A stretch of DNA of 64,000 nucleotides. It comes from Bryobacteraceae bacterium. Its GTDB lineage: Bacteria > Acidobacteriota > Terriglobia > Bryobacterales > Bryobacteraceae. The translations under genes were made by a program, and so were the position numbers. The stretch is taken from the NCBI GenBank assembly GCA_029975915.1, contig JARKOC010000332.1:1-64000 (forward strand). Reading direction: 5' to 3'. The first letter of the stretch is position 1; each line of letters opens with the position of its first letter. This document shows positions 29,604-46,036 of this stretch, in pieces. The notes below the pieces were generated by a model. The model did no database searches. It saw only the letters and a program-made list of their open reading frames with translations, and was not told where the DNA came from.

Positions 29604-30443
29604 CTATTGCCGGGGTTTGGTGATCTCGCCGTAAAGCTCAGGCCGCCGCTCCTGGATGAGTTGCACAGGCGCGCCGTCTTTCAAGGCAACCGTCGCCATG
29701 ACGATCTGGTCGCTCTCGCCTGTGTTCTGCGCGACGATGGTCCCGCGCGGGTTGATGACGAGGGTACGTTTGGGATGAACGAATGCCAGCCAGACTCCGT
29801 TCTCATAGGCGCGGACACGCATCATCTGATCGTTCATCTCGCTGTAACTGCCCCAAGCCGGAACGAGGATAAATTGTGCGCCCCGGAGCGTAAGGATTCG
29901 GGCCGTTTCAGGCAGTTGGCGGTCGAAGCAAATGAGCGTGCCCCAGCGGCCCAGAGCCGTATTGGCGACGGGGAATTCATCACCCTTGCTGTTGAACGGC
30001 TCGTCGTTTGCCGTGTGCGACTTTGAATAGCGGGACACAACCTTCCCCTCGGGCGAGAAGATGACCGCGGTGTTATACATGCGGTCATCGCGCCGTTCGG
30101 CGAACCCAATCAGAAGGTGGATTTTCAGTTCGCGGGCCAAGGCAGCAGCCCGAGTCATCATTGGGCCGTCGACGCGTTCGCCGACACTGAAGTACCGTTC
30201 GCGGTCGAGGCCGGGTGAGCGATGCTGGTTGGCCACGTATCCCTCAAGGAATCCCTCTGGAGTCGCCACCACTTGCGCTCCGCGCGCCGCCGCCTCCCGT
30301 GCGTACTTCTCCAGCAGCCTGAAGTTGGACTCCTTATCCCACGGCGTGGGGGTCAGGCTCAGGCCGGCAAAGACAAATGTGGCGTCGGCGGCGCCGGCCA
30401 AAGCCGCGGAGAGCAGGACTGAGGAAAGACATCTCAGAAGCAT
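29604..30443 (-). CDS. Secreted carbon-nitrogen hydrolase (nitrilase superfamily)
   Basis: About 279 residues from the ATG at 30443. A signal peptide (LLRCLSSVLLSAALAGA) is followed by the CN-hydrolase fold with the Glu-Lys-Cys triad: Glu in VVATPEGFLEG (about residue 58), Lys in YSKSHTAND (about 138) and Cys in GTLICFDRQLPE (about 170). Members cleave amides or nitriles, and export suggests action on a periplasmic amide. It is downstream of an isomerase gene on the same strand at 64 bp distance. Substrate cannot be told from sequence. Confidence 0.9.
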   Translation of the reverse strand: MLLRCLSSVLLSAALAGAADATFVFAGLSLTPTPWDKESNFRLLEKYAREAAARGAQVVATPEGFLEGYVANQHRSPGLDRERYFSVGERVDGPMMTRAAALARELKIHLLIGFAERRDDRMYNTAVIFSPEGKVVSRYSKSHTANDEPFNSKGDEFPVANTALGRWGTLICFDRQLPETARILTLRGAQFILVPAWGSYSEMNDQMMRVRAYENGVWLAFVHPKRTLVINPRGTIVAQNTGESDQIVMATVALKDGAPVQLIQERRPELYGEITKPRQ

Positions 30444-30507
30444 AGCCTGGGTCCTTTGCGCAAGCCGGATTTGGCCGCCACGATTCGTGCGGTCCGCGGC
30501 CCAGTTG

Positions 30508-31365
30508 CTAGGCAAGAGCGAGGATCGAATCAAAGCGGCTGCAGGTGTCGCGGAGATAGGCTTCATCGCCGCCTGCCATCTCGAGGGTCGCCGATCCTTT
30601 GTAGCCGATGGTCCTAATCGCAGAGGCGACTGCCTTCCAGTCGATGTCGCCCTGGCCGAGCACCAACCGCTGGCCGGGTACTCGTTTAATGGAGGCTTCC
30701 TTGAAATGGAGCTTGACGATGCGCTTGTTCAGAGTCAGGATCCAGTCCTGCGGGTAACCGATGTTCATGCTGACGATGTTGCCAACGTCGAAGTAGGCGC
30801 GAACCCAGGGAGTTTTGAAGTCATCGACGTAACGGGCAAATTCGAGAGGACTCAGTAGGAACTTGTTGCCGACGTTTTCCATCGCGATGATGACCTTCAA
30901 CTCGGCCGCTAGCGGCAGGATCTTACGGACCTGCTGGACTGACCTGGTCCAGGCATCCTCATAGCGCGTTTCTGGGTTGACCACGGCGGGGACCAAAAGA
31001 ACCGTTTCTGCTCCCCAGAAGTGGGCATTCCGGATGCTGGTTTCCAGCCCCGTCATGCTTTCCTTGACGACCGCCGGGTCAGCGGATGAGAGAGGGAACT
31101 TCCAGTGGGCCTGGTTCATTACAGAATGGATCCGGACGCCTGCGGCTTCAGCGCCCTTCTTGATCTCATCTGCATCCCGCTGATCTGGAGTCGTGTAGCA
31201 TTCAACCTCGGGGAAGCCGGTGTCCCGGGCGAGTTTGAACCGGTCGGCAATGGACAGTTCCTTGGGCAACATTCCAAAGACAAGACCCTTGGTGAGCGGC
31301 AGCGGAGCCGCATTGGCGGCGAGGACGGGGGCGAGTGACGCCGCGCAGAATTCTCTTCGGTTCAT
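30508..31365 (-). CDS. Exported sugar phosphate isomerase/epimerase (TIM barrel)
   Basis: A 285-residue TIM-barrel protein with a Tat-like signal (MNRREFCAASLAPVLAANAA) and an AAGGAG ribosome site 8 bp upstream. IIAMENVGN (about residue 148), RAYFDVGNI (about 179), LHFKEASI (about 211) and ATLEMAGG (about 253) carry the metal-binding Glu/Asp/His residues of the xylose-isomerase-like family. It resembles the two other exported members in the window. It lies between the hydrolase and the aminotransferase genes, all on the minus strand, which suggests one transcript with short gaps. Confidence 0.88.
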   Translation of the reverse strand: MNRREFCAASLAPVLAANAAPLPLTKGLVFGMLPKELSIADRFKLARDTGFPEVECYTTPDQRDADEIKKGAEAAGVRIHSVMNQAHWKFPLSSADPAVVKESMTGLETSIRNAHFWGAETVLLVPAVVNPETRYEDAWTRSVQQVRKILPLAAELKVIIAMENVGNKFLLSPLEFARYVDDFKTPWVRAYFDVGNIVSMNIGYPQDWILTLNKRIVKLHFKEASIKRVPGQRLVLGQGDIDWKAVASAIRTIGYKGSATLEMAGGDEAYLRDTCSRFDSILALA

Positions 31366-31420
31366 GGCAGGCTCTCCTTTGCTTGGTAGTCGTAATGCTA
31401 TCGAATCTCATCACGGACTG

Positions 31421-32731
31421 TCAGATCTTGGACAGTTCAGCGGCGTGTTTCCTGATTTTGCCGATCGCCGTGGCGATGTCTTCCATGTCGGCGCGTGTGG
31501 CTAACAAGGCCGACTGCGGCAGCCACATGCCCTCGCGGCAGAGCCGGTCGTTGGCCGGGCAATGGTTACGTTCCCGCCAATGGGCGATTTCCTGCTGCGT
31601 GTAGACCGCCCGGAAGGTGCGGGAGTTCAGCGTGTTCTCAAGAAACGCCTCGCGGTTGAGCGGCCCGTATCCGGCTGAGATGGGCACACCCTCGGCGCGG
31701 GCCGCTTTCAAGAACCGCTCACGGGATAAGCCGGAGAAGGCTTCGGCGTCGTAGCGGAGCATGTAGAGGTGGTAAGCGTTGCGGGTACAGCCGCCGTACA
31801 TGCGGGCGGGCCTGATGCCGGGAATCTCCTTGAGCAGCGCCGTGAGCGTGGCGGCATTCTCCTCGCGGCGCTTGGCCTGCTCGTCCAGACGGGTCAGTTG
31901 AGCCATGAGGACGGATGCCTGAAACTCGGATAATCGGAGGTTGATCCCGTTGGTCCCCTTCGGGTCGGCCGGCCCCTCGTCGGGGGTGCGGTAGTGGGAA
32001 TGGAAACCGTAAGCGCGGCGATAGAGAGTCTCATCGTTGGTGACGGCCGCGCCAGCCTCTCCACCTGGGAGGTTCTTGAACTTCTGGAAGCTGAAGCAGC
32101 CGAGGTGTCCGATGGTGGCGGCCTTTCTGCCGCGCCATTCGGAGAGGTGGGCCTGGCAGGCGTCTTCGATGACAGGGACGCTGCGCCGTTTGGAGATGTC
32201 CATGATGCGGTCCATGTCGGCGACGTAGCCGCCTAGGTGGACGGGCATGATGCAGCGGGTGCGAGGAGTAATCAGAGCCTCGATCTTTCCGGCGTCTATG
32301 AGCCCGGCGTCAGGATCGGAATCGGCAAAGACGGGCAGGGCGTAATGGGCCAGAATCGAGTTGATCGTGGCGATGAAAGTGTAGGGCGAAACGATGACTT
32401 CGTCCTTGGGCCCCACATCGAGCGCATGGAGCGAAGCCATGAGCGCGCTGGTCCCGTTGGCGGTTGCGAGGCAGTGGCGGGCGCCCATGCGAGCGGCCCA
32501 AGCCTGTTCGAAGTCGCGGACAAAATGACCTTCCTTCCGCCACCACTTGCAGGCGCGCAGAGCTTCGATGAGTTTTGCTTCGTCCTGTGGCTCGGACTGA
32601 GGCCAAGAGGGCCAGGACTTCTTCCGCACTGGTTCGCCGCCCAGGATGGCTGGCTTCTGGTCCGCGGCGCGGCCGGTTGACTGTGTGAGGGCGAGAGCCG
32701 GTCCTGCTCCCAAAAAGAAACGACGGCGCAT
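31421..32731 (-). CDS. DegT/DnrJ/EryC1/StrS-family aminotransferase with export signal
   Basis: A 436-residue PLP-dependent enzyme of the sugar-aminotransferase family. The PLP lysine is in GCFSFQKFKNLPGGEAG (about residue 206-220), VIEDACQAHLSEW supplies the cofactor-ring Asp, and GTSALMASLHAL is the phosphate-binding region. Start RBS AAAGGAGG is 8 bp upstream. Unusually the N terminus is MRRRFFLGAGPALAL, a Tat-like signal, suggesting that the PLP enzyme is folded and then exported; most relatives make amino-sugars in the cytosol. It is upstream of the isomerase and hydrolase genes on the same strand. The substrate is unknown. Confidence 0.85.
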   Translation of the reverse strand: MRRRFFLGAGPALALTQSTGRAADQKPAILGGEPVRKKSWPSWPQSEPQDEAKLIEALRACKWWRKEGHFVRDFEQAWAARMGARHCLATANGTSALMASLHALDVGPKDEVIVSPYTFIATINSILAHYALPVFADSDPDAGLIDAGKIEALITPRTRCIMPVHLGGYVADMDRIMDISKRRSVPVIEDACQAHLSEWRGRKAATIGHLGCFSFQKFKNLPGGEAGAAVTNDETLYRRAYGFHSHYRTPDEGPADPKGTNGINLRLSEFQASVLMAQLTRLDEQAKRREENAATLTALLKEIPGIRPARMYGGCTRNAYHLYMLRYDAEAFSGLSRERFLKAARAEGVPISAGYGPLNREAFLENTLNSRTFRAVYTQQEIAHWRERNHCPANDRLCREGMWLPQSALLATRADMEDIATAIGKIRKHAAELSKI

Positions 32732-33005: not shown

Positions 33006-33530
33006 CTACTGGCTTGGACTCACGGACGGGGGCGTAGAAGTCGCGACAACTCCCAGTCCCGCTGCCGCCGCAGCTGCGCTCCCCAGCACGATGGCGATAT
33101 TCCTTGCGGTCCAGAAGCCGGCACGTCTTTTGTCGTTGCTGACGCTGTAGGATCCTCGCTCAGAGGAGACGGTCACGACCCTGCCCGATTCGGCGAGAAC
33201 CGGGGAATCCAGACGTTTCAAGTCGTATGCGGCTTCCCCGGACAGCAGGCGGAAAAGGGGTTTGCCGCCAGCGAGTTCGACTCTGGCGCGGGAGCCCGGC
33301 GCCACGGCGACTCTTGAGCCGTTCTCGAAGGTAAATGTCACAGGCCCGGAACCGGCGGTGGTCTCGTCACCCGGCATAATTGGCCAGGATGGGATCCCGC
33401 TGGGGTTCACCTCCACGCCCCTCAGAGTGAAAGGTTGAGCGGCGGTGGCGGTGGCCAGCCTTGTCGTTTGGCCAAACATCAGGCCCTGGATCGCAAATGT
33501 TGTAAGCAGCAGTAAACGAGTGGAGAGCAT
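33006..33530 (-). CDS. FecR-like secreted/anchored protein beside lasso-peptide genes
   Basis: A 174-residue protein. The N terminus (TRLLLLTTFAIQGLMFGQ) is a signal segment. The middle shows a FecR-like pattern: FTFENGSRVAVAPGSRARVEL, then FRLLSGEAAYDL. Near the C terminus is a hydrophobic helix (ARNIAIVLGSAAAAAAGLGVVA), followed by Ser/Pro residues, so it may be anchored in the inner membrane. FecR-type proteins sense or relay outer-membrane signals to sigma factors, but no sigma factor is in view. It is 83 bp after the PqqD-like gene on the same strand, so it may belong to the lasso operon. Confidence 0.6.
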   Translation of the reverse strand: MLSTRLLLLTTFAIQGLMFGQTTRLATATAAQPFTLRGVEVNPSGIPSWPIMPGDETTAGSGPVTFTFENGSRVAVAPGSRARVELAGGKPLFRLLSGEAAYDLKRLDSPVLAESGRVVTVSSERGSYSVSNDKRRAGFWTARNIAIVLGSAAAAAAGLGVVATSTPPSVSPSQ

Positions 33531-33613
33531 ACGACCTCATGCGGCGGACACAAACCGCTCGCCTTTAGTTTACCCGGCACGGATGTGAGAATCAAGACTT
33601 AAGTTATTTGTAA

Positions 33614-33910
33614 TCAATCAGTTGTATGACAAATGACAGACGAGCGGCGCGCGAGGCCGCGACGCTCCAACTCCTCGGCGAGATCCCTAACGTCCTGCTC
33701 CAGAGTGTTGGGATCCACATCGTATTCAGCCAACAGCAGCTGACATATCTGCGCCAAAGTGCAGCCTTCCGAAGCGAGTTGCCATATTCTTGACCCCGTT
33801 TCGTCCAGCGTGTAGTAGATGCCCGAATGCAGATCCAGGATCACGGTCTCCTGCCCGGCATGCCGCGCCATGACATGGTTGGGCGTCTCCAGGCCGTAAG
33901 ACAACGTCAT
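33614..33910 (-). CDS. PqqD-like RiPP recognition element (lasso B1 protein)
   Basis: A 98-residue PqqD-fold protein. The domain reads from ILDLHSGIYYTLDETGSRIWQLA through LAEYDVDPNTLEQDVRDLAEEL, the hallmarks of the beta-wing/helix platform that binds the leader peptide and gives it to the B2 protease. In lasso-peptide clusters this stand-alone protein is called B1. The start overlaps the stop of the upstream kinase gene by ATGA, so the two are translationally coupled. It is expected to bind the Y-x2-P-x-L leader motif of the precursor gene encoded two genes upstream. Confidence 0.9.
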   Translation of the reverse strand: MTLSYGLETPNHVMARHAGQETVILDLHSGIYYTLDETGSRIWQLASEGCTLAQICQLLLAEYDVDPNTLEQDVRDLAEELERRGLARRSSVICHTTD

Positions 33911-34764
33911 ACATCCGCCCCCAAATTGGCTAGAATTTTTTGCCGGACCTCCCCAAGGACGGAATAGCGTCGCGGGAAATCCAACCTGTAGAAATGCGGA
34001 AACTCCACCATCCGCGCCAGGTGATCGAAATGGCGGGCGATCAGGTCCCTGTCATCCAGGTCGAGCAAGAACGCGTGGCTGACCAGTTCTATGAGTGCGT
34101 CTGCCGCGCTGACGGCCTCGATGTTGATCTCTCCGGCACCCTCCTGGCGAAGGAAATAGACCTGTCGCAGCGGCGCTGGGGCGGTGGAGAAGCCAATGCA
34201 GCCATCGGTCAGAATCCGGAACTTGGCAGTGTAGCCGGCTGCTTGAACGCGGCCGGTTCCGGGCGGCAGCAGAGCCGCCCGACTGTCTGGCCAGAGCCTC
34301 AACGATCCATGTCCCGGCCTAGCCTGCCACTGCCCATCATCTGATTGCTCGATATGCAGACCGTCGTCAGTAATCAACTTGGCGCCGTTCAGCGCAAAGG
34401 CGGTAGCCAGCGTCGATTTCCCCATTCCAGACTGGCCGAGGAAGGCCAAGGCTCCACCGTCCACAACTACAGCACTTCCGTGAAATACAAGTTTGCGCTG
34501 GCAACTCAAAGCCAGAGGGAGGACTTGGTTCTGATAGAGGTGTTCAATCGTCTCTTGGGAGGCGCCGGACAACGCCCTTGAACTGATTGATGTGCCGTCG
34601 CGCGAAATAGCAAACTCAGCCAAGTCTGGAAACTGGAGGACGTAGCCCTGACTGGTACGGAAGAAGCGGAGCCAATCACCGCCGCCAGGCAGCCTCCAGA
34701 CATGGTACAGTTCCCCCCATCGAGCGATGCCGCCATTCGGACCGCTATTACCAGACACGATCAC
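33907..34764 (-). CDS. HPr kinase-like protein (lasso-peptide kinase)
   Basis: A 285-residue protein with GTG start, 9 bp after the precursor stop. The C-terminal part has a P-loop GQSGMGKST (about residue 111) and a LITDDGLHI motif (about 130), as in the C-terminal kinase domain of HPr kinase/phosphorylase, without its N-terminal HPr-binding domain in recognisable form. In some Firmicutes lasso clusters a homologue phosphorylates a C-terminal Ser of the precursor. Here the predicted core ends in Ser-Ser-Ala-Lys, so phosphorylation of one of these Ser is possible but not shown. It ends overlapping the B1 gene. Confidence 0.82.
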   Translation of the reverse strand: MIVSGNSGPNGGIARWGELYHVWRLPGGGDWLRFFRTSQGYVLQFPDLAEFAISRDGTSISSRALSGASQETIEHLYQNQVLPLALSCQRKLVFHGSAVVVDGGALAFLGQSGMGKSTLATAFALNGAKLITDDGLHIEQSDDGQWQARPGHGSLRLWPDSRAALLPPGTGRVQAAGYTAKFRILTDGCIGFSTAPAPLRQVYFLRQEGAGEINIEAVSAADALIELVSHAFLLDLDDRDLIARHFDHLARMVEFPHFYRLDFPRRYSVLGEVRQKILANLGADV

Positions 34765-34773
34765 CTTCCGCGC

Positions 34774-34935
34774 CTACTTGGCGCTGCTGGGTGGTCCACC
34801 TTCGGCCCGCTTTCCATGCCAATCGGTGCCCGAGTGCCCGCGGCCCTTGGTCAGTTCCCGCATTGAGCCGCGAACGTGGAGCGCCGGCTTGTTGTACGGC
34901 TTCTTTGGAGCCTTGTTCGGAGGCGGTTGCGTCAT
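34774..34935 (-). CDS. Lasso-peptide precursor
   Basis: A 53-residue peptide starting at the ATG at 34935, preceded by purine-rich GAGAGAGGG. The leader (residues 1-30) holds the conserved Y14, P17, L19, G23 and T29, exactly the Y-x2-P-x-L-x3-G-x5-T pattern of lasso leaders bound by B1. The Thr at -2 sets the cut after Lys30. The predicted core starts at Gly31, and a ring GRGHSGTD would close from Gly1 to the Asp8 side chain. The 15-residue tail begins WHGKRAEGG and ends PPSSAK. Only one core copy is present. It lies 58 bp after the cyclase stop and 9 bp before the kinase start. Confidence 0.88.
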   Translation of the reverse strand: MTQPPPNKAPKKPYNKPALHVRGSMRELTKGRGHSGTDWHGKRAEGGPPSSAK

Positions 34936-34993
34936 ATTGCAGCCCTCTCTCAAACATAACCGTAATTGATTGTCCTGACAATAGCCGATTCTC

Positions 34994-36883
34994 TCACTCT
35001 GGCCCAGGCCGGAGGACACCCTCTGCCTCGCGCCTGTCCAGGGCATCCACCAGGCACATGCATCCGAAGACCCCCCAAGCCTGGAACCCTATCGGAAGGA
35101 TCTGTCGGGGATCATCCATGGCGACGGCTTGGTAGAGTGCAGCCAATCCAGCAGGATCAACGAGACCTGCCAGTGAGTTGCCAGCCCGCACAACGAAGTC
35201 CTCAGGCAGTCCGGCGAGGGCGCGGCGATAGACGCCGGAGAACTCGGCTTTGGATCTGCGCTGCCGAACCGGCTCAGGCAGTAAACCGCCGATCGCTTGG
35301 CGGTGCAGCCACCTGTCTGTCGATCCCACACGCAGCAACCGTTCCGGGACGGCGAAGGCAAATTCCACTACTGCCTTGCTGCGGAAAGGACTACGGATCT
35401 CCAGGCCGGAGTGAGACAACTGCCGTTCAGACCATTCGCCTGCGCGGCGGATGTAGGGATCGAGCAGAATTCCGAGTTTCTCGCTCTTGCGTTTCAACTT
35501 GCGCCCGGCGGGGCGGCGAGTCACCAACTCGGCCTTGGCGGCGGCGGTGAGGATCTCTGGATGAGGCGGCGAACGCCTGCGCGCCTGCCACCGGCGGTTT
35601 GCGGCGATCAGACGTTCAGGCGCAGCCAACTTCAGCATCTGGCGCACGAACCAAGCAGTGCCTCTATCTCTGATATCGGCCCGCGCGCAAGCGAGCAACT
35701 CGCCCCAGCGGCCGGCCCGCAGCTCCTCGATATAGCGTTCCGGGCAGCCGTCCAGCCATTCGTCGCCGCCCAGACCGGTGACAATCACACGAGCCCCGCG
35801 TCTGGCCGCCAGCTCGTAGAGCCCCAGTCCCATAGTCCAATTTGGGAAGGGTGGGCATTCGAGGTATCGCGCCGCCCATTCACGGTGCGAGGCCGTGGAG
35901 GGAATCACGGGTTCTGTCTCATGAATGGGTTGGGAAAGATGGCCCCCTACCGCTCTGGCATACTCCAGTTCATCCGCGCGGGTATCGCCGGGAAAGCGGA
36001 GCGTAAAACCCTCGATCCGAGGAGCAGGGAGCCGGCCTTGCCGGTTGAGCGACGCGGCGGCGGCAAAGACGGAAGAGGAATCAAGCCCACCGCTCACTTC
36101 GTATGCCACCGGCTGGTGGGAGCGCGACAGTCTTCGGATGGAGTCGAATAGCAGCTCCCGGTAGCGTTGAACGTAATCGGCCGTCGATGAGAAGCGCAAC
36201 TCCGGAATTTCCTCAGGAGCCCAGTAGCGTTCTGACTTCTGGCCCGTCTCCGAAAAGAACACCCAATGAGCCGCGTTTAGGCGTTCGACGCCCGCCCAGA
36301 CCGTGCTGGTCAGGGATTGCCACTCGTCGGCGGCATATTCGGCAAGCGAGGACCAATTCAGCGTGCGCGGAATCCAGGGCAGGCTCAGTATTGCGTGCAG
36401 GTCGCTTGCCACCACCAGCGAGGTTGCGGTGCGGTGGTAGTGGAGTGGCTTGTTGCCCATCCGGTCGCGCGCACAAAAAGCTCGGCGGGCGCGAGTATCC
36501 CAGATCACGAAGGCGAAATCGCCATCGATGTGGTGCAGGCAAGCTTCCCCCCACTGTTGGTAAGCGCGCAGCACCAGTTCAGCGTCCGAGCGGTTCCGCA
36601 GTTGCGTTCCACGGCAAATCAGTTCGAGTCGCAGTTCCTCGCGGTTGTCCACCCTGCCGTCCATGACAAGTATGAGCGACTGGTCTTCATTCGCCCAGGG
36701 TTGCTGTTCCTCCAACGACTCAGGCGTCGTGCGGAGCATGCACTGTCCGAGAGCGGCTTGGCCCATGTTCCAGTGCCCGATCCCGTCGGGTCCGCGGTAC
36801 GCCATCGATGCCGTCATCCGCCGAATCTCGCCAGAGTCCGCCGGCCGGCCGTCGAAGTGGATGATTGCGGCAATCCCGCTCAT
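34994..36883 (-). CDS. Lasso cyclase (asparagine synthetase homologue)
   Basis: A 629-residue protein of the asparagine synthetase B family, the C protein of lasso clusters, which uses ATP to activate the ring Asp or Glu and close the macrolactam. The N-terminal Ntn-type domain begins MSGIAAI with Ser where glutamine-using enzymes have Cys2, so the glutaminase site is lost, as expected when the free amine of Gly1 is the nucleophile. The PP-loop SGGLDSSS lies at about residue 265, and GLGGDEWLDG (about 369) is typical of the synthetase domain. It overlaps the B2 stop by 4 bp. Confidence 0.93.
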   Translation of the reverse strand: MSGIAAIIHFDGRPADSGEIRRMTASMAYRGPDGIGHWNMGQAALGQCMLRTTPESLEEQQPWANEDQSLILVMDGRVDNREELRLELICRGTQLRNRSDAELVLRAYQQWGEACLHHIDGDFAFVIWDTRARRAFCARDRMGNKPLHYHRTATSLVVASDLHAILSLPWIPRTLNWSSLAEYAADEWQSLTSTVWAGVERLNAAHWVFFSETGQKSERYWAPEEIPELRFSSTADYVQRYRELLFDSIRRLSRSHQPVAYEVSGGLDSSSVFAAAASLNRQGRLPAPRIEGFTLRFPGDTRADELEYARAVGGHLSQPIHETEPVIPSTASHREWAARYLECPPFPNWTMGLGLYELAARRGARVIVTGLGGDEWLDGCPERYIEELRAGRWGELLACARADIRDRGTAWFVRQMLKLAAPERLIAANRRWQARRRSPPHPEILTAAAKAELVTRRPAGRKLKRKSEKLGILLDPYIRRAGEWSERQLSHSGLEIRSPFRSKAVVEFAFAVPERLLRVGSTDRWLHRQAIGGLLPEPVRQRRSKAEFSGVYRRALAGLPEDFVVRAGNSLAGLVDPAGLAALYQAVAMDDPRQILPIGFQAWGVFGCMCLVDALDRREAEGVLRPGPE

Positions 36884-37401
36884 TCAGCCGCGGCTCCTCC
36901 GCCAGACATAGGCTGATACTCCCTGTCGGCAATGGCGCCGATCACGGCGGCTCCCGCCACCTCGACCCAGGCATGCGCACCGAATTCCCCTTCAACGGAG
37001 ACGCCGATTCGGAGCATCGCCTGATGGCCGGAGGCTTTCAGCAGGGCCTCGCCGACCATGGCCCTTTCCAGGCAACGGGATAGGGGGACACGGTTCAGCG
37101 CGGCGTCGACGGCCCAGACAATCTCCTTCAGTTGCATAGTGTCATGCCCGGCCAGGATCGCCATCAGCCGGCGGACGTCCTCGTACTTGGCGATCCGGAG
37201 CGCCATAAGGCAGACTACGCCCATCACCCAGGCCCGCAGGAGAGCCACCCGCGCAGGCCACGTGAGACTGAACCATTTTGCTGCCCGGCCTCCGCTGCTC
37301 ATATTAAGAATGCGCGACGCCGGGATGAGGGCGAACCGCAGCGCCGTGTCCTCCGAAGTATACCGCCGCGAGGCCAGCCCGCCTTCAGTCCAAATTGGCA
37401 C
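36880..37401 (-). CDS. Lasso B2 leader peptidase (transglutaminase-like)
   Basis: About 173 residues from a GTG at 37401 with AAGGAG 6 bp upstream; the ATG at 37407 sits directly on that ribosome site and is less likely. The transglutaminase-like protease domain shows the nucleophile Cys110 in PLSRCLERAM and His143 in GAHAWVEV. The Asp seen 12 residues after His in the McjB type is not at that place here (Gly), while Asp159 is nearby; this variant seems usual in part of the family. It cleaves the leader before ring closure. It starts the minus-strand lasso operon and overlaps the cyclase gene (ATGA). Confidence 0.88.
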   Translation of the reverse strand: MPIWTEGGLASRRYTSEDTALRFALIPASRILNMSSGGRAAKWFSLTWPARVALLRAWVMGVVCLMALRIAKYEDVRRLMAILAGHDTMQLKEIVWAVDAALNRVPLSRCLERAMVGEALLKASGHQAMLRIGVSVEGEFGAHAWVEVAGAAVIGAIADREYQPMSGGGAAAE

Positions 37402-37435
37402 TGTCATCTCCTTCAGTACTTCGCTATTCTGTGGC

Positions 37436-39265
37436 TTGCCCGGCGCATCGTCAGATCTGGCACTTGAACGATTGAGACGGTTGGTCAGGGAGTTCCGCCA
37501 CCTTCCGCGCATCCTGCGTCTGGTCCACCAAGCGGCAGGATGGAGGACTGCGGCATGGGCCGCACTGCTGTCGGTTGAAGGGGCTGTCCCACTGCTGACG
37601 GTCATGTTCTCCCGCCAGGTAGTCGACCAGTTGCTGAGTTCGCTTAAGACTGGGCGGATCGAACCGACCATTGCCGCCGCGGCGGGACTCGTGGCCACCG
37701 TTCTGGCTGGCGAACTTGTCTCGGCGGCAGCGGCTCATTTGCGCACAGTACAGGCTGAGATGGTCCGGGATCACATACACGAGCTCGTGCACCGCCAGTC
37801 TGTCCGGGCGGGCCTGGCGTTTTACGATTCGGCCGACTTCCACGACCACCTGCACCGGGCGCGGGCAGAAGCGGCATACAGGCCGGTCCAACTGCTCGAA
37901 AGCCTGGGCGCCACGGCTCAAGCCGTCTTCACGCTTGCGGGATTCACCATTATTCTGGCGGCGTATGCCTGGTGGCTGCCACTAATCTTAATCGGCGGCG
38001 CTGTGCCGGCTCTCGCACTCCTGCTCCGATCCAGCCTTTTATTCCATCAATGGCGGCGCCAGTCGACGTCCGCGGAGCGCCGGACGTGGTATCTCGATTG
38101 GGTCCTTACCGCGGCTGAAACAGCCGCCGAAATCCGTCTGTTCGGCCTTGGCGGACTATTCAGCGGCGAGTTTGCCCGGTTGCGGAGTTCGCTGCGCCAG
38201 CAAAGGATCGAGATTTCAGTCCGGCAGGCCCGTGACCGCCTTGCCGCGTCCCTGGTCTCGTTCATGGCGGCCGGAATCATTGGCGCCTGGATCCTGCTTC
38301 AGGCTCTGGCTGGACGATTCACGCCTGGCGATCTGGTTCTTTTCTACCAAGCACTCCAACAGGGACTTCGATTGGTACATTCCCTGCTTGGCAACGCGGC
38401 GGACATTTATGGCAGCATGCTGTTTCTGGGCAACCTTTTTGAATTCCTGGATCTCCAGCCGGACGTGATCGAGCCGCACGACCCGCGTCCCGTACCATCA
38501 AAGCTCGCCGCTGGGATCACATTCAACCAGGTTTCGTTTTCCTACCCAGGATCGAAGGCTGCTTTAATCGAGGGACTGGACCTGTTGCTCCCGGCCGGAA
38601 AGATGACGGCGGTAGCGGGTGCAAACGGTTCCGGAAAGTCCACACTCGTTAAGCTCCTTTGCCGTTTCTATGACCCGCAACGCGGCTCGATCGAATTTGA
38701 CGGGATTGACCTCCGGCTCTTCGATCCCGCGGAGTTGCGCCGGGCAATTACTGGCCTACTTCAGGGCGCGGCGCGATTCCACGATACTTTCGCCCGCAAT
38801 GTTTGGATGGGCGACGTTTCCGGTCCGCCGGACCAGAGCAGAATCCGGCAGGCCGCCGTAGGAGCCTCCGCAGCGGCGATCGCCGAAGCTCTGCCATGCG
38901 GAATTGAAACCATGCTAGGCCGTGATTTCGAGGCCGGGCACGAACTCTCAGCCGGACAGTGGCAGCGATTGGCCCTGGCACGCGGTTTCTACCGGCAGGC
39001 TCCGCTGTTGATCCTAGATGAACCGACCGCCTCGATGGACCCCTGGGCCGAGTCTGAATGGCTGGCCGGTTTCAGGTCCCTGACTGCCGGCCAGACGGTG
39101 CTGCTCATCACCCACCGCTTCACCGCCGCCCGGCACGCCGACACGATCCATGTCCTGGATGCCGGGCGAATCGTCGAATCGGGTTCGCACGCGGAGTTGC
39201 TATCGCAGAACGGCCTGTACGCGAAGGGGTGGGCCGCACAAACAGGCGGCGGGCCACGCCCATGA
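37436..39265 (+). CDS. ABC exporter (permease fused to ATPase), lasso-peptide export
   Basis: About 609 residues if translation begins at the TTG at 37436; TTG at 37472 or 37481 are also possible, and no strong ribosome site is seen, so the start is uncertain. Sequence upstream in frame lies antisense to the B2 gene. Six transmembrane segments (about 50-330) are followed by an ATPase domain with Walker A GANGSGKST, the signature LSAGQWQRLALAR, Walker B LLILDEPTASMD and LITHRF. It is divergent from the lasso operon with about 30 bp between starts, and is coupled to the nucleotidyltransferase gene by ATGA. Likely exports the mature peptide, giving immunity. Confidence 0.88.
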   Translation: MPGASSDLALERLRRLVREFRHLPRILRLVHQAAGWRTAAWAALLSVEGAVPLLTVMFSRQVVDQLLSSLKTGRIEPTIAAAAGLVATVLAGELVSAAAAHLRTVQAEMVRDHIHELVHRQSVRAGLAFYDSADFHDHLHRARAEAAYRPVQLLESLGATAQAVFTLAGFTIILAAYAWWLPLILIGGAVPALALLLRSSLLFHQWRRQSTSAERRTWYLDWVLTAAETAAEIRLFGLGGLFSGEFARLRSSLRQQRIEISVRQARDRLAASLVSFMAAGIIGAWILLQALAGRFTPGDLVLFYQALQQGLRLVHSLLGNAADIYGSMLFLGNLFEFLDLQPDVIEPHDPRPVPSKLAAGITFNQVSFSYPGSKAALIEGLDLLLPAGKMTAVAGANGSGKSTLVKLLCRFYDPQRGSIEFDGIDLRLFDPAELRRAITGLLQGAARFHDTFARNVWMGDVSGPPDQSRIRQAAVGASAAAIAEALPCGIETMLGRDFEAGHELSAGQWQRLALARGFYRQAPLLILDEPTASMDPWAESEWLAGFRSLTAGQTVLLITHRFTAARHADTIHVLDAGRIVESGSHAELLSQNGLYAKGWAAQTGGGPRP

Positions 39266-40368
39266 GCCCGGAACTGAGGCTTGTTCTCGCCAGCGCGGCG
39301 ACGGTCCCTTCAGAGGCGGCCAAGGCATTCTGGGCAGACTTGGCCTCGGGCGGACTGAACTGGGACGAAGTCTTGGAACTTGCGGCCAAGCACCGCGTCC
39401 GCCCAGCACTTTTTAAGAACTTAGGTGCGTTACTGCCGCCGTCTTATCTGGCGCGAATGGAGCAGGCGTGCGAGGCCATCTCCGCCCATAACCGCTTTCT
39501 GGCGTCGGAACTTTGTTCGGTGATGCAGATGCTCGAAGCATGCGGAGTTCAGGCGATCGCCTTTAAGGGTCCCGTATTTGCTCAGCAGGTTTGCGGCGAC
39601 ATCACTCAGGCCGAGTTCGCCGACCTGGATCTGCTGGTTCCGCGTGAATTGGCATGGCTTGCCGTCGAAACACTAGAAGGACAAGGCTACCACTGCGAAT
39701 ACGCGGCCGGAAACTGGCGCCGCCAGGTCCTACTCGACTTGGAGTGCGAGGTGACCTTGGCTCATCCCGCTGGCCACACCGTGGACCTCCACTGGGACTT
39801 CACCGCTCCGTATTACCGCCCATTCCCCATCACGCTTCCAGTTGAAACCGTCGAAGTCCATGTGCTGGGTTCGCCCTTGCGTACTCTTGCTTACGAGGAT
39901 GCCGCTTTGTTTGCCATCGGGCACCTATCCCGGCACGGTTTTTGGATCGCAAAGGAGACGGCCCAAATCGCTTCGATTCTTGGTTCTATACAGACGCTCG
40001 ACTGGGATCGCGTCCTGGAGAGGGCCTCGCGGCAGGGCTGCCGCCGGATGGCTCTTTTCGCCGTGGCCGCGGCCGCCGAGTTTCACCAGGCTCAGATCCC
40101 GGCGACGCTGGCGCAAACGTTGTCCCGTGAGCGTCACTGGCTGAACGGCGCACTGTTCCGGAGCAAACGGTCGTTCGACGGCGCGGCAAGTCATCCTCCA
40201 AGTGCGCTGCCGAGACTCGCCATGAGACTTAGCCATCTGGATTCAATCGGCCAGCGCGCAGGGCATATGGCGCGATTTCTGTTCACGCCCCGCCCCGCGG
40301 TTTGGTCGCGATTGCCTTGGGCCGGTCTGCTGGCGGGAAGGTTGCTGCGCGGGCGAGGCCACCCGTGA
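39262..40368 (+). CDS. Nucleotidyltransferase-like protein of the lasso cluster
   Basis: A 368-residue protein whose ATG overlaps the ABC exporter stop by 4 bp. The pattern GVQAIAFKGPVFAQQV (about residue 93), then EFADLDLLVP with acidic residues, resembles the uncharacterised nucleotidyltransferase family (NTP_transf_5) that has a GNAT-free fold of polymerase-beta type. Homologues occur in kinase-containing lasso clusters, where their role is not settled; modification of the peptide or of a phosphorylated tail is a hypothesis. The conserved Arg usual before the acidic pair is not seen here (AEFADLD). It ends 17 bp from the convergent GH127 gene. Confidence 0.7.
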   Translation: MSPELRLVLASAATVPSEAAKAFWADLASGGLNWDEVLELAAKHRVRPALFKNLGALLPPSYLARMEQACEAISAHNRFLASELCSVMQMLEACGVQAIAFKGPVFAQQVCGDITQAEFADLDLLVPRELAWLAVETLEGQGYHCEYAAGNWRRQVLLDLECEVTLAHPAGHTVDLHWDFTAPYYRPFPITLPVETVEVHVLGSPLRTLAYEDAALFAIGHLSRHGFWIAKETAQIASILGSIQTLDWDRVLERASRQGCRRMALFAVAAAAEFHQAQIPATLAQTLSRERHWLNGALFRSKRSFDGAASHPPSALPRLAMRLSHLDSIGQRAGHMARFLFTPRPAVWSRLPWAGLLAGRLLRGRGHP

Positions 40369-40385: not shown

Positions 40386-42341
40386 TCACCGTTGGAGGTA
40401 AAGCACCCAAACCTGACTCGCAGAGGGCCCGCGGTTCAGGAACGTGTAGTAAGGCGTGAAGATCAAATCCACCGGCTCGCCGGGCCGGGCCAGCGATTCC
40501 CCCATCCTGGTGTAGAGAGGTAGCGAATCATAGGCCGCCACCGCTTTTCGCCCTTTATGCGTGAGTGTCACGACGCCGCCCAGCAGGTTCGGTTCATACT
40601 GTTCCGCGAAATCACCTGAACCATCTCCAGTGAGGCTCAGATAGCTCTCCAGCACATTCACTCCCGGCGCTTGGCCGGCCTGTTCCAGCAGATAGACGAC
40701 CGGGCCGCGGCGTACCGCCGCTCGCCCTTGATTACTGGCCACTAATGGATTGGAGACCAAAACCTGCGGCTTCATGTCGAAGGAAACACGGACAGAATCG
40801 CCTTTTCGCCATACGCGCCGGATTTCAAAGTAGGAACCCGGCCGAGGCTCGCCGGAGGCTTTACGGCCGCCGACTGTCACCGAAGCCGACCGCGCCCAAC
40901 CAGGGATGCGCAGCATCAGGGAAAACTCGGCGGCTGGCGCTTCTTCAAATGTCAGATCGACGGTTCCCTGCCACGGGTATTTTGTCGCTTGAGTGAGTTT
41001 GACCGGTGCGCCGCCGTCGAGTTTCCAGTCTAAGCGATTGTTGTCATAAAGATGAACCCACAGGCCCTCCTTGCTAATGCCATAGAAGTAGCCCGGCAAA
41101 GAAGCCAGCATGCGTTGCAGATTCGGCGGGCAGCAGGTGGTGGTGTACCAGGGATTGCGAATTCGTTTGGACGCCTCCTCGGTGAGTTCAAGCGGATTGC
41201 GATAGCAGTACATCGTTCCGTCGAGCGACATACCGGAGTTGATGGAGTTGTAGATCGCCGTCTCGACGATGTCAGCGAACCGCGCTTCGCCGGTGGCCGC
41301 CAGCATGCGCCAGTTCCACATCAGGTTGGCGATGGCGGCGCAACTCTCGGTATAGGCTTTGGCATTGGGCAATTCGTACGGATCGCCGAATGTTTCGCCG
41401 GCGGCGCGCGATCCGGTGCCTCCGGTGACATACATTTTGCTTTTGACGAGATCAGCCCAGAGGCGTTCGAGCGCTGCTTTATAGGCGGAATCGCCTGTCT
41501 CCAGGTAATAGTCCGCCGCGCCGGAAGCCGCATACCCGGCGCGGACGGCATGGCCCTCAATGACCGTCCGGTCCGTGAACGGGCGTCCACTGAAGGTGTA
41601 GCTCATCTGGGCCGGAGTCAGTTTCAGGCGCGCGCCGTCGCCGCGCAGGATGTATCCGGCGAGGTCCAGGAACTCCTTGCGGCCCGTAGTCCGGTACAGT
41701 TCGACCAGCGCCAGTTCGATTTCAGGGTGGCCGGCGAGCAGCGGCTGCTTTTCCGGGCCGAAATCGCGTAACAGGTACTCGACGAAGCGGATGCCGCCGT
41801 CCATCAGCTTGCTGTTGCCGGTGGCGCGGTAGTAGGCGATGCCGGCTTGAAGCATGTGGCCGAGGCAATACAGTTCATGGCCGGTGACCATCTCTTTCCA
41901 GCGGCGGTCCTTGCGATCCTCGATCCAGTAGGTATTGAGGTAGCCGCTGGCCTCCTGGGCAGCGAGGATCTCGTCGGTCAGCTTGTCGAAGGTTGCGCGG
42001 AGTTTTGGGTCGTCGGCCGTCTGAAGGACAAAGGCAGCGGCCTCCATCCATTTGTAGATGTCCGAGTCAGTGAACAGCGGGCCTCTGCGAGGGACGTTCT
42101 TCCCGGCCAGACGCCGGAAGTTATCAACAATGCCGTGCTCCTCGAGAAGGTCCAGCAAAGTTGGGATGCTGCGCTCGACATTCGTCTTCATGCGAGGCGC
42201 CCAGAAGCCGTCACGCATCGTTACGGCCGAGACTGGCACGTTTCTCACCTTTGCATAGGGCGATTTCTCAAGGTTCAGCACCATACGGTCGGCCCCCGGC
42301 GCCAGTGAACTCATCACGCAAAAAACCAGCAGGAATCTCAT
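40386..42341 (-). CDS. Secreted GH127 beta-L-arabinofuranosidase-like protein
   Basis: A 651-residue protein with an ATG 7 bp after AGGAG and a signal peptide (RFLLVFCVMSSLAPGA). An (alpha/alpha)6 barrel family: GHELYCLGHMLQAGIAYY is diagnostic. The GH127 zinc/nucleophile residues can be placed: Glu in GETFGD, then Glu and Cys in YTESCAAIANL with 16-residue spacing as in HypBA1, and two adjacent Cys in TTCCPPN. These support a cysteine-nucleophile beta-L-arabinofuranosidase that works on plant hydroxyproline arabinans or arabinogalactan. The divergent receptor gene follows across about 234 bp, which fits an arabinose-glycan module. Confidence 0.9.
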   Translation of the reverse strand: MRFLLVFCVMSSLAPGADRMVLNLEKSPYAKVRNVPVSAVTMRDGFWAPRMKTNVERSIPTLLDLLEEHGIVDNFRRLAGKNVPRRGPLFTDSDIYKWMEAAAFVLQTADDPKLRATFDKLTDEILAAQEASGYLNTYWIEDRKDRRWKEMVTGHELYCLGHMLQAGIAYYRATGNSKLMDGGIRFVEYLLRDFGPEKQPLLAGHPEIELALVELYRTTGRKEFLDLAGYILRGDGARLKLTPAQMSYTFSGRPFTDRTVIEGHAVRAGYAASGAADYYLETGDSAYKAALERLWADLVKSKMYVTGGTGSRAAGETFGDPYELPNAKAYTESCAAIANLMWNWRMLAATGEARFADIVETAIYNSINSGMSLDGTMYCYRNPLELTEEASKRIRNPWYTTTCCPPNLQRMLASLPGYFYGISKEGLWVHLYDNNRLDWKLDGGAPVKLTQATKYPWQGTVDLTFEEAPAAEFSLMLRIPGWARSASVTVGGRKASGEPRPGSYFEIRRVWRKGDSVRVSFDMKPQVLVSNPLVASNQGRAAVRRGPVVYLLEQAGQAPGVNVLESYLSLTGDGSGDFAEQYEPNLLGGVVTLTHKGRKAVAAYDSLPLYTRMGESLARPGEPVDLIFTPYYTFLNRGPSASQVWVLYLQR

Positions 42342-42531
42342 CAGCTAACTCCTATCCCGTTCATTCCATTCGAGATTAATCGTATCGCAAGCCAGCTGTG
42401 CGCAGGGGCAATGAAGTACTCAACCGAATCTCGTTCGAGCACGGGGAGCACCGCGGCAAATGAAAACCGACTCATATGGGAAATTTTCCTTGCTACTGAT
42501 ATGGCATCTCTGTTAGGCTCTGTAGCCAAAC

Positions 42532-42559
42532 TGTAACGTTGTTGTTACAAACGTTTACG
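42532..42559. promoter_or_regulatory. Overlapping palindromes, possible LacI-type operator
   Basis: TGTAAC/GTTACA (42532-42537 and 42544-42549) forms a perfect inverted repeat with a 6-bp spacer, and AAACGTTT (42549-42556), a perfect CG-centred palindrome of the kind LacI-family regulators bind, overlaps its end. They sit 17-44 bp before the receptor ATG, between divergent GH127 and receptor genes. No regulator gene is in the window. Confidence 0.5.
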
Positions 42560-42575
42560 TCAAGAGGGGTTTCCC

Positions 42576-45500
42576 ATGGTTCAGTTGCTTTCTCTGTTTT
42601 GCTTATTGCTGGCGGTTTCGATGGCCGTGCCAGCACAAGTCCTTTACGGTTCTCTGGTCGGGAATGTGACCGACGCTTCCAGCGCAGCCGTCCCCGACGC
42701 CAAGGTCGTCGCGAAGGAAATGCGCACTGGTTTCGTTCGCGAAGCTACAACCAACGAGAGCGGCCAGTACCAGATCTCAACTCTGCCAGGCGGCACTTAC
42801 GAAATCACCGTCGCCAAACAGGGCTTTACAACGTTTGCGGCCCGCGAAATTGCGGTCGCCGTCAACGCCGCCACTAGAGTCGATGCCTCTCTCCAGGTCG
42901 GCGGGCTCGCCGAGACTATTCAGGTCGAAGCGGCTCCTCCCGCGATTCAGACTGATCGCGCCGAGGTCCGCGCCGAGATCGGTGCGAAACAGTTTGAAAA
43001 CGCTCCATTACCTCCTGGCCGCAATTATTCACACATGTTCAAGACCCTGCCGGGCTTTACGTATCCGCGCAACGGCAACGGGCCGAGCGTCGATCCCTCC
43101 CGAGCCGCCCTATACAACGTCAACGGCACCAGCCGCAGTTCTAACGCCGTCCGCATAGAGGGCGCCGGCGTAAATCAGATCTGGCTTCCGCACCTCCCCG
43201 GCTACACGCCCGCGCTGGAAGCCGTAGAGGCCGTGAATGTCACAACTAACTCCTTCGATGCCGAAACTGGTCTCGCGGGTGGCGCGGCGGTCAACGTCCA
43301 GATCAAGAGCGGCACCAACCAGATGCACGGCTCGCTGTTCGAATACCACAACAGCAATGCCACCAAAGCGAAGCCTTTCTTCCTGCCCGCCGGCCAACGT
43401 AATCCAAAACAGATCCTCAACCAGGCCGGCGGCACCTTCGGCGGCCCGATCATCAAGGACAGACTCTTCTACTTCGGCAGTTATGAATCTACCTGGGACC
43501 GCCAGTTCGGTTCCCGCCTCCTTACCGTTCCCACCGCTGCTATCAAAGCTGGCGACATGTCGGCTTCGCCCAACCTTGTCTATGACCCGGCCACCGGCGC
43601 AACCAACGGTTCCGGCCGCACGCCCTTCCCCGACAAGCGGATTCCCGACTCCCGGATGGAGCCTATCGCTTTGAAAATTCAGAGCATGCTTCCGGCGCCC
43701 ACGTTCCCGAACCAACTCACCAACAACCTCTTCGCTCAGGGTCCCTACTTCTTCAATTCAAAGAAGTTCGATGGCAAGATCAACTGGAATCCTTCCACCA
43801 ACCTCACGATGTTCGCCCGCGGAGGCGTTCAGGATCACTATTTTGACAGTGCGCCGAGCCTGGGCGAAATCCTCGGCGTGCCCGTCTATTCACCGGCCTC
43901 CGTTTCAGGCGGAACCTACGGCACCACCGGCAATATGGCCGTCGGTATCACCTACGTCCTACGCCCCACGCTCATCCTCGATGGTAACTTTGGATACACC
44001 GCCTATGACGCCAATTCAGAGGAACGTGGTCTGGGCAAGAACATTGGCCGCGATGTTCTTGGCATCCCTGGCACCAACGGCACCCGTTATTTCGAGAGCG
44101 GCTACCCGCGGTTTTCCGTCTCCAACTACGCAGTCATGGGCGCGCAGGGCAACTCTTCCCGGCCCTTTTACAACCGCGACCCGCGCTTCCAGTTCGTCGG
44201 CAATGCTTCCTGGACCAAGGGCACTCACAACATCCGCTTCGGATTCGATTCCTCCAAGCAGCAGATCAACCACACGCAGGCTGAGTTCGTTGGCGCTCTG
44301 CACGGGCCTTCTGGCGGCTTCACTTTTGCCGGCGGACCAACCACACTTCAGGGCGGCCCGGCGTCCAACCAATTCAACACCTGGTCGGCTTTCCTGCTCG
44401 GCTTGCCGACAGGAATCGGCCGCATTCTCCAAGTGCCAGAGGAATACTCCGTCCGCGCTTCAATGCATTCGCTTTACTTCCGCGATCAGTGGCAGGTCAC
44501 GCGTCGCTTGACGGTTTCTCTCGGGACCCGTTGGGAGTACTTCCCCATGCCTCGCCGCGCGGATCGGGGCCTGGAACGATACAATCCCGTCACCAACAAG
44601 ATGCATGTCTGCGGCGTCGGCGATGTCCCCATGGACTGCGGCGTGGAACAAAGCAAGACCCTGTTCGGCCCGCGCGCCGGTTTGGCCTTCCGCCTTAAGG
44701 ATGACTTTGTGATCCGCGCCGGCTACGGCATCACCGTCGATCCCTACAGCCTAGCCCGCCCCATGCGCACCAACTACCCGATGCTCGTTGTGCTCAATTT
44801 GAACGGCGTCAACTCGTTCCAACCGGCCGGCCGTCTCCGCGACGGTATCCCCACCCTCCAGGCGCCCAACTTGGGCAACGGCATTATCGACATCGGCAAC
44901 GCCGTCGCCGCCAACGCGCTCGAAGACAAATACAACCGCGGTTACATCCAGAGTTGGAACTTCACCATCCAGAAGAAGCTGATCTGGGGTTTTGTCGGCC
45001 AAGCCGGCTATGTGGCAACGCGCCAGATCAACCAGGTAGGTTTCGCCGAGCTCAACGCCGCTCCTATCAACGGCGGCAACAGCGGCCGGTTCCTGGCACA
45101 GAAGTTCGGACGCACAGCCGAAACCCGCCTCGTGACGCCTATAGGCAACTCACAATATGACGGACTTCAGATGTCACTTGAGCGGCGGTTTTCCGGCGGT
45201 CTCCAGGTTGGCGTCTCGTATACCTGGTCGAAGGCGCTGGGTATCTGCTGTAGCGAAAACAGTGACGGGCTAGCTGCGATCCAACTGAAGGAGTACTATC
45301 ATCTGAACCGCTCGGTCACCAACGCGAACTCCCCCAACAACCTGACCATGAACGGAGTTTGGGAACTCCCGTTTGGCACAGGCCGCAAATGGGCCAACCA
45401 GCGAGGCCCAATCACCTGGCTGGTCTCTGGCTGGCAGGTGAACGGCATCCTGAGCCTCGTTTCCGGACAACCGTTCTCGGTCACTGCCTCAAGTACTTCG

Positions 45501-45926
45501 CTCAACGCACCCGGAAATACACAGCGGGCCGACCAGGTGAAAGGCAGTGTGGCCATCATCGGCGGCGCCGGTACGGGACAGTCCTACTTCGATCCGTTCG
45601 CATTCAAACCGATTACGGATGCACGCTTCGGAACCGCGGGGTTCAACAGCCTTTACGGTCCCGGAATCGTCAACCTTGACGCAGGCCTGTTCCGGAGCTT
45701 CCGCATCAACGAACGCTTCACTATGCAGTTCCGCGCCGAGGCCTTCAACGCGACCAATACGCCTCACTTCGGAACACCCGGCACCAACGTCTCGAATCTT
45801 CAGCTCAACGCAGACGGTACAATTCGGGCTCTCGGCGGATTCACCGAAATTACCAGCCTCCAGAATACCGGCCGCGACGGAATCGACGAACGAGTCTTCC
45901 GTTTCGGCCTGCGGCTCAGCTTCTGA
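42576..45926 (+). CDS. Oar-like TonB-dependent receptor with carboxypeptidase-regulatory N-terminal domain
   Basis: A 1116-residue protein, ATG with AGAGGGG upstream. A short signal (LLSLFCLLLAVSMAVPAQ) is followed by a CarboxypepD_reg domain (LVGNVTDASSAAVPDAK), a plug-like region (PLPPGRNYSHMFKTLPGF), and a barrel that ends LRLSF with terminal Phe. Its divergent partner is GH127, and the next gene on the same strand is a DHDPS-like aldolase, so arabinose-containing glycan fragments are a reasonable but unproven cargo. It is preceded by the palindromes that may serve as operator. Confidence 0.92.
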   Translation: MVQLLSLFCLLLAVSMAVPAQVLYGSLVGNVTDASSAAVPDAKVVAKEMRTGFVREATTNESGQYQISTLPGGTYEITVAKQGFTTFAAREIAVAVNAATRVDASLQVGGLAETIQVEAAPPAIQTDRAEVRAEIGAKQFENAPLPPGRNYSHMFKTLPGFTYPRNGNGPSVDPSRAALYNVNGTSRSSNAVRIEGAGVNQIWLPHLPGYTPALEAVEAVNVTTNSFDAETGLAGGAAVNVQIKSGTNQMHGSLFEYHNSNATKAKPFFLPAGQRNPKQILNQAGGTFGGPIIKDRLFYFGSYESTWDRQFGSRLLTVPTAAIKAGDMSASPNLVYDPATGATNGSGRTPFPDKRIPDSRMEPIALKIQSMLPAPTFPNQLTNNLFAQGPYFFNSKKFDGKINWNPSTNLTMFARGGVQDHYFDSAPSLGEILGVPVYSPASVSGGTYGTTGNMAVGITYVLRPTLILDGNFGYTAYDANSEERGLGKNIGRDVLGIPGTNGTRYFESGYPRFSVSNYAVMGAQGNSSRPFYNRDPRFQFVGNASWTKGTHNIRFGFDSSKQQINHTQAEFVGALHGPSGGFTFAGGPTTLQGGPASNQFNTWSAFLLGLPTGIGRILQVPEEYSVRASMHSLYFRDQWQVTRRLTVSLGTRWEYFPMPRRADRGLERYNPVTNKMHVCGVGDVPMDCGVEQSKTLFGPRAGLAFRLKDDFVIRAGYGITVDPYSLARPMRTNYPMLVVLNLNGVNSFQPAGRLRDGIPTLQAPNLGNGIIDIGNAVAANALEDKYNRGYIQSWNFTIQKKLIWGFVGQAGYVATRQINQVGFAELNAAPINGGNSGRFLAQKFGRTAETRLVTPIGNSQYDGLQMSLERRFSGGLQVGVSYTWSKALGICCSENSDGLAAIQLKEYYHLNRSVTNANSPNNLTMNGVWELPFGTGRKWANQRGPITWLVSGWQVNGILSLVSGQPFSVTASSTSLNAPGNTQRADQVKGSVAIIGGAGTGQSYFDPFAFKPITDARFGTAGFNSLYGPGIVNLDAGLFRSFRINERFTMQFRAEAFNATNTPHFGTPGTNVSNLQLNADGTIRALGGFTEITSLQNTGRDGIDERVFRFGLRLSF

Positions 45927-46036
45927 GCTGCAACGGTATCCGGGCATATTCCAATCAGTTGGAGTGCGCGGTTGGCGGGAGCCAGCCGCGCGTCATTGAA
46001 TGACCGGGCGCCTCCGATCGTGGTAGGAATGATCTC

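Follow-up and report, generated by a model that had tools for sequence, protein, structure and literature searches.

A putative kinase-tailored class II lasso-peptide gene cluster in a Bryobacteraceae genome

Several lasso-peptide systems with tailoring enzymes have been described. Lasso peptides tailored by a kinase and a nucleotidyltransferase, such as pseudomycoidin, have been characterised (PMC9266682, PMC8498205). A gene set comprising A, B1, B2, C, D, K and N has been described as the bsf cluster of Bradymonas sediminis FA350, in which BsfK phosphorylates core Ser3 (PMC10368454). In addition, cloning of DNA from soil has yielded three acidobacterial lasso clusters, 40.1, 482.1 and 44.1 (PMC9064862). 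Here we analysed a 64,000-nucleotide stretch of DNA, hereafter the window, from a Bryobacteraceae bacterium (contig JARKOC010000332.1, assembly GCA_029975915.1). One locus in the window very probably encodes a class II pathway in which a lasso peptide is tailored by a kinase.

The initial annotation had claimed a complete lasso-peptide locus in an acidobacterium-like genome, with B2 protease, cyclase, precursor, kinase and B1 genes on the minus strand opposite an ABC exporter and a nucleotidyltransferase. Every named gene is present with an open frame (Table 1), and the claim is supported by hidden Markov models (HMMs), the anatomy of the precursor and syntenic loci in acidobacterial metagenome-assembled genomes (MAGs). 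An outer-membrane protein of the window is 74-75% identical to its best Bryobacteraceae matches and places the window in this family, though only as a rough guide, since the protein has many paralogues. The minus-strand genes follow the order B2, C, A, K, B1 over positions 33614-37302, with D and N divergent at 37436-40368 on the plus strand. Together they appear to form a complete, intact-looking gene set by which a soil-type acidobacterium would produce a small lasso peptide, probably phosphorylate it, and export it.

The precursor gene lies between C and K, and its product reads MTQPPPNKAPKKPYNKPALHVRGSMRELTK/GRGHSGTDWHGKRAEGGPPSSAK (leader/predicted core). It carries the full lasso signature, namely Y-17, P-14, L-12, T-2, G1 and the acceptor D8, with a predicted G1-D8 ring. 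The register Tyr-17/Pro-14/Leu-12/Thr-2/Gly1 fits the B1-recognition spacing given in PMC10368454. The open reading frames of the window gave a single match to the precursor motif, as did a set of 60 first-order Markov sequences, each 64 kb long. This rarity, together with a gene order conserved in two other loci (L006 and L023, described below), places the locus beyond chance. Two precursor homologues and no others were found, P0121 (96% identical) and P0122 (79%, core GRGQSGSDAHGKRTQGGPPSSAK), both of which retain G1, Ser5, D8 and the SSAK tail. The predicted monoisotopic masses are 2313.111 Da for the lasso peptide and 2393.077 Da with one phosphate. For a phosphorylated lasso peptide of a hardly cultured phylum, the locus offers a full set of genes that can be put to the test, along with an exact predicted mass.

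B2 scored 65.5 bits against the NCBIfam model lasso_biosyn_B2 (NF033537, cut-off 33), and the Cys within SRCLERA and the His within AHAWVE line up with those of relatives. Twelve residues after the conserved His it has Gly where other B2 proteins have Asp. Gly is frequent here in the bacterial family of the window. Of the 17 B2 rows parsed from loci numbered L081 upwards (among which L082 and L114 are one gene), 15 have Gly; among 32 parsed rows from L001-L080, 12 have Gly and 16 have Asp. The cyclase matched the Pfam families Asn_synthase (125.6 bits, over cut-off) and GATase_7, and the lasso cyclase model NF033535 with an E-value of 8.5e-105. Its SGGLDSS motif is invariant, and residue 2 is Ser in all 16 aligned rows. 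B1 reached 77 bits against PqqD (PF05402, cut-off 23.4), with the lasso B1 protein TbiB1 as its nearest solved structure (E 9.8e-14). D scored 88.7 bits against ABC_tran and N 137.1 bits against NTP_transf_5 (PF14907); they are 66-68% and 44-46% identical, respectively, to their counterparts in L006 and L023.

The kinase has a predicted PEPCK/HprK fold, and its His, GxxGxGKS and DD residues are spaced as are those tested in BsfK (PMC10368454). The window resembles bsf in its gene set, its predicted G1-D8 ring, the lack of a C-terminal Ser and the spacing of the kinase motif. With the aid of B1, the bsf kinase modifies an internal Ser (PMC10368454). The bsf precursor has Ile at -2 and the phosphorylated Ser3, whereas that of the window carries Thr at -2 and, in the core, Gly3 and Ser5, with neither Ile at -2 nor Ser or Thr at core position 3; the phylum also differs. 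With the paeninodin, ThcoK and SyanK systems the window shares a class II cluster, an HprK-like kinase, separate B1 and B2 genes and an exporter; those kinases, however, act on a C-terminal Ser (PMC9266682, PMC8498205). Lys is the last residue of the window precursor, and likewise of P0121 and P0122, so the window kinase cannot act as in paeninodin. The psm cluster of pseudomycoidin likewise combines a kinase with a nucleotidyltransferase-like tailoring gene, but PsmN adds hexoses to the phosphate on a terminal Ser (PMC9266682, PMC8498205).

A terminal Ser was present in 3 of 35 precursors from kinase-bearing relatives, counting those free of the Peptidase_S74 (S74) domain described below. Ser or Thr occurred inside the ring in 48 of 49 precursors, at position 5 in 27 of them; one row in these counts (L039, -2461) is probably spurious. 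Judging by the relatives of the window, the kinases of this clade seem not to depend on a C-terminal Ser. An internal Ser is thus the likelier acceptor, perhaps ring Ser5. Alternatively, the kinase may act on the Ser20/Ser21 pair in the tail of the core, in which case the C-terminal phosphorylation of the paeninodin type would occur here in displaced form. The window, P0121 and P0122 share the SSAK tail unchanged, and those firmicute kinases that have been characterised target a C-terminal Ser (PMC8498205), but in the window Ala-Lys comes after the pair, and no terminal Ser is present in L006, L023 and L013, relatives whose kinases are 47-50% identical. We consider this second site possible, though somewhat unlikely.

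The sequence shows which genes are present, the register of the precursor, the synteny, the kinase motif and the predicted kinase fold; from these we infer cleavage, ring closure, threading, the site of phosphorylation, the role of N and export as follows. B1 would bind the leader at YxxPxL and present the precursor, and K would phosphorylate an internal Ser of the linear peptide, most likely ring Ser5 and otherwise the tail Ser pair. B2 would cleave after Lys30, with Thr at -2, and C would use ATP to activate the side chain of Asp8 and join it to the amine of Gly1, trapping the tail. D would export the product, and N may attach a further group to the phosphate.

Precursors and neighbourhoods were analysed for L001-L056 of 80 cyclase loci in genome contigs, with 24 weaker ones left out. 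Two of these, L006 (a Bryobacteraceae MAG) and L023 (a Candidatus Solibacter MAG), have cyclases 54-55% identical to that of the window and keep the whole order and orientation, with N and D divergent from B2, C, A, K and B1 and a FecR-like gene beside B1. They differ from the window in a methyltransferase between A and K, in their cores and in the nine-residue rings of the precursors after C. L006 also carries a second lasso precursor before the cyclase (6288-6449), with a Glu acceptor and the core GGAGSKGEQNDSQKFKRP, besides the one after it.

In a cyclase tree (75 rows, quick method, midpoint root), the window and P0001 formed a clade (support 100) inside a 13-row clade (100) containing L006 and L023. 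Adjacent to it was a clade of 33 rows, in which every named member belongs to the Pseudomonadota (joint support 92). A 92% identical cyclase was found elsewhere. We also surveyed genomes by scoring the best few cyclase candidates in each. Close cyclases (E<=1e-100) were found in 2 of 237 family genomes, those of L006 and L023, and among 396 genomes from the phylum one, that of L023, had a cyclase at E<=1e-80. Lasso B2 genes were present in 52 of the 237 family genomes, some with two or three, and nearly all of these genomes have no close relative of the window cyclase. This patchy spread, together with the neighbourhood of the cyclase in the tree, suggests horizontal transfer of the cluster, in either direction.

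Acidobacterial lasso clusters are not new in themselves. The clusters 40.1, 482.1 and 44.1 share lasso B1, B2 and C with the window but differ in gene order, and the kinase of 482.1 is aminoglycoside-phosphotransferase-like rather than of the HprK type (PMC9064862). The initial annotation could name no characterised acidobacterial cluster of this gene order; in the open-licence literature, as available in excerpt, neither this order in an acidobacterium nor a characterised acidobacterial product was found, whereas acidobacterial lasso clusters and the gene set itself are already in print. The locus is of a known lasso type; its core sequence is new, and its placement is rare.

The methyltransferase of L006 (8890-10017) and L023 (12155-13285) is a class I enzyme scoring over the Methyltransf_25 cut-off, with weak PRMT-like matches at its C-terminus. 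By eye, its C-terminal stretch resembles a PqqD-like winged helix. Counting the 43 of 56 loci in which C and K are adjacent on the plus strand, a methyltransferase stands between C and K in 27, including L006 and L023. In the window it is absent between A and K, as it would be if the cluster were a degraded acidobacterial A-methyltransferase-K-B1 cassette that had lost the gene. However, all remaining frames are open and tightly spaced, homologues of the cyclase (92% identical) and of the precursor (96% and 79%) occur elsewhere, and 16 of the 43 loci likewise have no methyltransferase there by the same test (L014 showing weaker matches). Decay is therefore improbable.

Several observations weigh against a phosphorylated lasso product. 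No product was detected from the cloned acidobacterial lasso clusters (PMC9064862). The initial annotation had called for HMM searches with B1, B2 and cyclase models: B2 and PqqD exceeded their cut-offs, and the cyclase did so for Asn_synthase, but it reached 351.7 bits against the curated cut-off of 525 for the lasso-specific NF033535. It also nears the cut-off for plain asparagine synthase (TIGR01536, 265.7 of 267.1 bits), and its five solved-structure matches comprise a hydroxyamidotransferase and asparagine synthetases, with no lasso cyclase. B2 had no match among solved structures. The kinase scored 26.3 bits for Hpr_kinase_C, below the Pfam gathering threshold of 33.3, and the precursor fell below three NCBIfam lasso precursor cut-offs (17.0/30, 14.7/33 and 12.8/19). 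The cyclase, kinase and precursor scores are thus weaker than the annotation had implied. Apart from Trp9/His10 and Arg/Lys, bulky residues are absent from the tail, so that no steric lock is evident. Not every precursor has Ser5, and position 2 carries Ser or Thr as often (26 of 49), but is Arg in the window. The gene order is not kept in three other acidobacterial-lineage loci: L045 (cyclase 34% identical; N, C, A, K and B1 found, D not), L031 (at a contig end) and L058 (cyclase 27%).

The low cyclase score would also suit a non-lasso system that pairs PqqD- and HprK-related proteins with an asparagine-synthetase-like enzyme, such as NCBI HPr-rel-A, to which K and B1 show weak matches (32.7 of 200 bits for HprK_rel_A and 24.8 of 35 for PqqD_rel_X), but these lie below the cut-offs, B2 exceeds that for lasso B2, the precursor has a complete lasso leader and acceptor register, and B1 is nearest to a lasso B1, which makes such a system very unlikely.

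Some of the relatives have precursors of an unusual design. Of 53 precursor rows from loci with related cyclases, 16 continue at the C-terminus into a Peptidase_S74 (intramolecular chaperone) domain, which Pfam detected in all 16 aligned proteins; a further one in L032, for which no start was found, is not among them. S74 domains, known from phage tailspikes, cut themselves at a conserved Ser and trimerise. Across the fusions, the leader register, the core and a Ser-x4-Lys motif align, with Ser59 nearly invariant and Lys64 invariant. A protein search with one fused precursor returned 1352 relatives. Among the 120 matches listed, 119 have a lasso leader and acceptor, the latter at core position 8 in 115 and 9 in 4, and 112 have the Ser-Asp...Lys motif. 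If cut before the Ser, the 111 cores measured among these matches would span 14-27 residues, one row (6) excepted. NCBI names P0188 and P0192 tail fiber domain-containing protein. Fold comparison gave no more than a suggestive result.

No mention of an S74-lasso precursor fusion was found in the literature searched. In the window, the precursor ends 15 residues after D8, and an S74-core word pattern gave no matches in six frames. We tentatively propose, at close to even probability, that the window cluster is a stripped-down branch, with neither methyltransferase nor follower, of a large, mostly proteobacterial kinase-tailored lineage, in which many precursors consist of leader, core and an S74 domain that would cut itself at Ser-x4-Lys to leave a core of ~14-27 residues, perhaps as a trimer. 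If so, the tail end of a ribosomally synthesised and post-translationally modified peptide (RiPP) would be set by an autoproteolytic follower domain. Such fusions, if real, would add a new way of finishing a RiPP and correct an annotation.

Table 1 Features of the window locus and S74-fused precursors of related loci
Feature	Position	Strand	Remarks
FecR-like secreted protein adjoining B1	33006..33530	-	cluster link unproven
B1, PqqD-type leader-recognition protein, 98 amino acids	33614..33910	-	PF05402, TbiB1
K, HprK/PEPCK-fold peptide kinase, 285 amino acids, GTG start	33907..34764	-	
A, lasso precursor, 53 amino acids	34774..34935	-	leader 1-30, predicted core 31-53; homologues P0121/P0122
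Promoter-like TTGTCA-17-TATGTT directly before precursor, weak	34953..34981	-	
C, asparagine-synthetase-type lasso cyclase, 629 amino acids	34994..36883	-	Asn_synthase, GATase_7, NF033535
B2 leader peptidase, 140 amino acids	36880..37302	-	NCBIfam lasso_biosyn_B2; Cys + His
D, ABC exporter, TTG start	37436..39265	+	ABC_tran; same place in L006/L023
N, NTP_transf_5 nucleotidyltransferase-like protein	39262..40368	+	PF14907; same place in L006/L023
S74-fused precursors (examples)	L001 11910-12332; L003 8101-8508; L005 2860-3312; L012 11918-12382; L049 12011-12433		

The genes of the window locus are closely packed. Of the four-base overlaps claimed in the initial annotation, ATGA overlaps were found at B2/C (36880-36883) and K/B1 (33907-33910), and likewise at D/N (39262-39265), but precursor and kinase do not overlap: the precursor stop at 34774 and the kinase GTG at 34764 leave the two genes 9 bases apart. 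The starts of B2 and D were set by alignment with L006 and L023 and that of N likewise by alignment with relatives, and an alternative in-frame B2 ATG at 37407 is possible. The promoter-like pattern was seen once against 1.5 expected by chance; TTATGTTTG also precedes the precursor in L006, but not in L023.

The position at which the annotated locus began, 33006, belongs to the FecR-like secreted protein, which lies outside the genes it had named. This protein is 50-52% identical to its counterparts adjoining B1 in L006 and L023, and in each syntenic genome the single match at E<=1e-3 is the one next to B1. At the same threshold, matches were present in 54 of 237 family genomes, and homologues occur also without the cluster. 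On either side (29604-32731 and 40386-47008), the window encodes CN_hydrolase, xylose-isomerase-like, DegT aminotransferase, GH127/aceric acid hydrolase, TonB-receptor-like barrel and DHDPS proteins. These neighbours appear to serve the metabolism of sugars and carbon, so that the cluster stands as an island among them.

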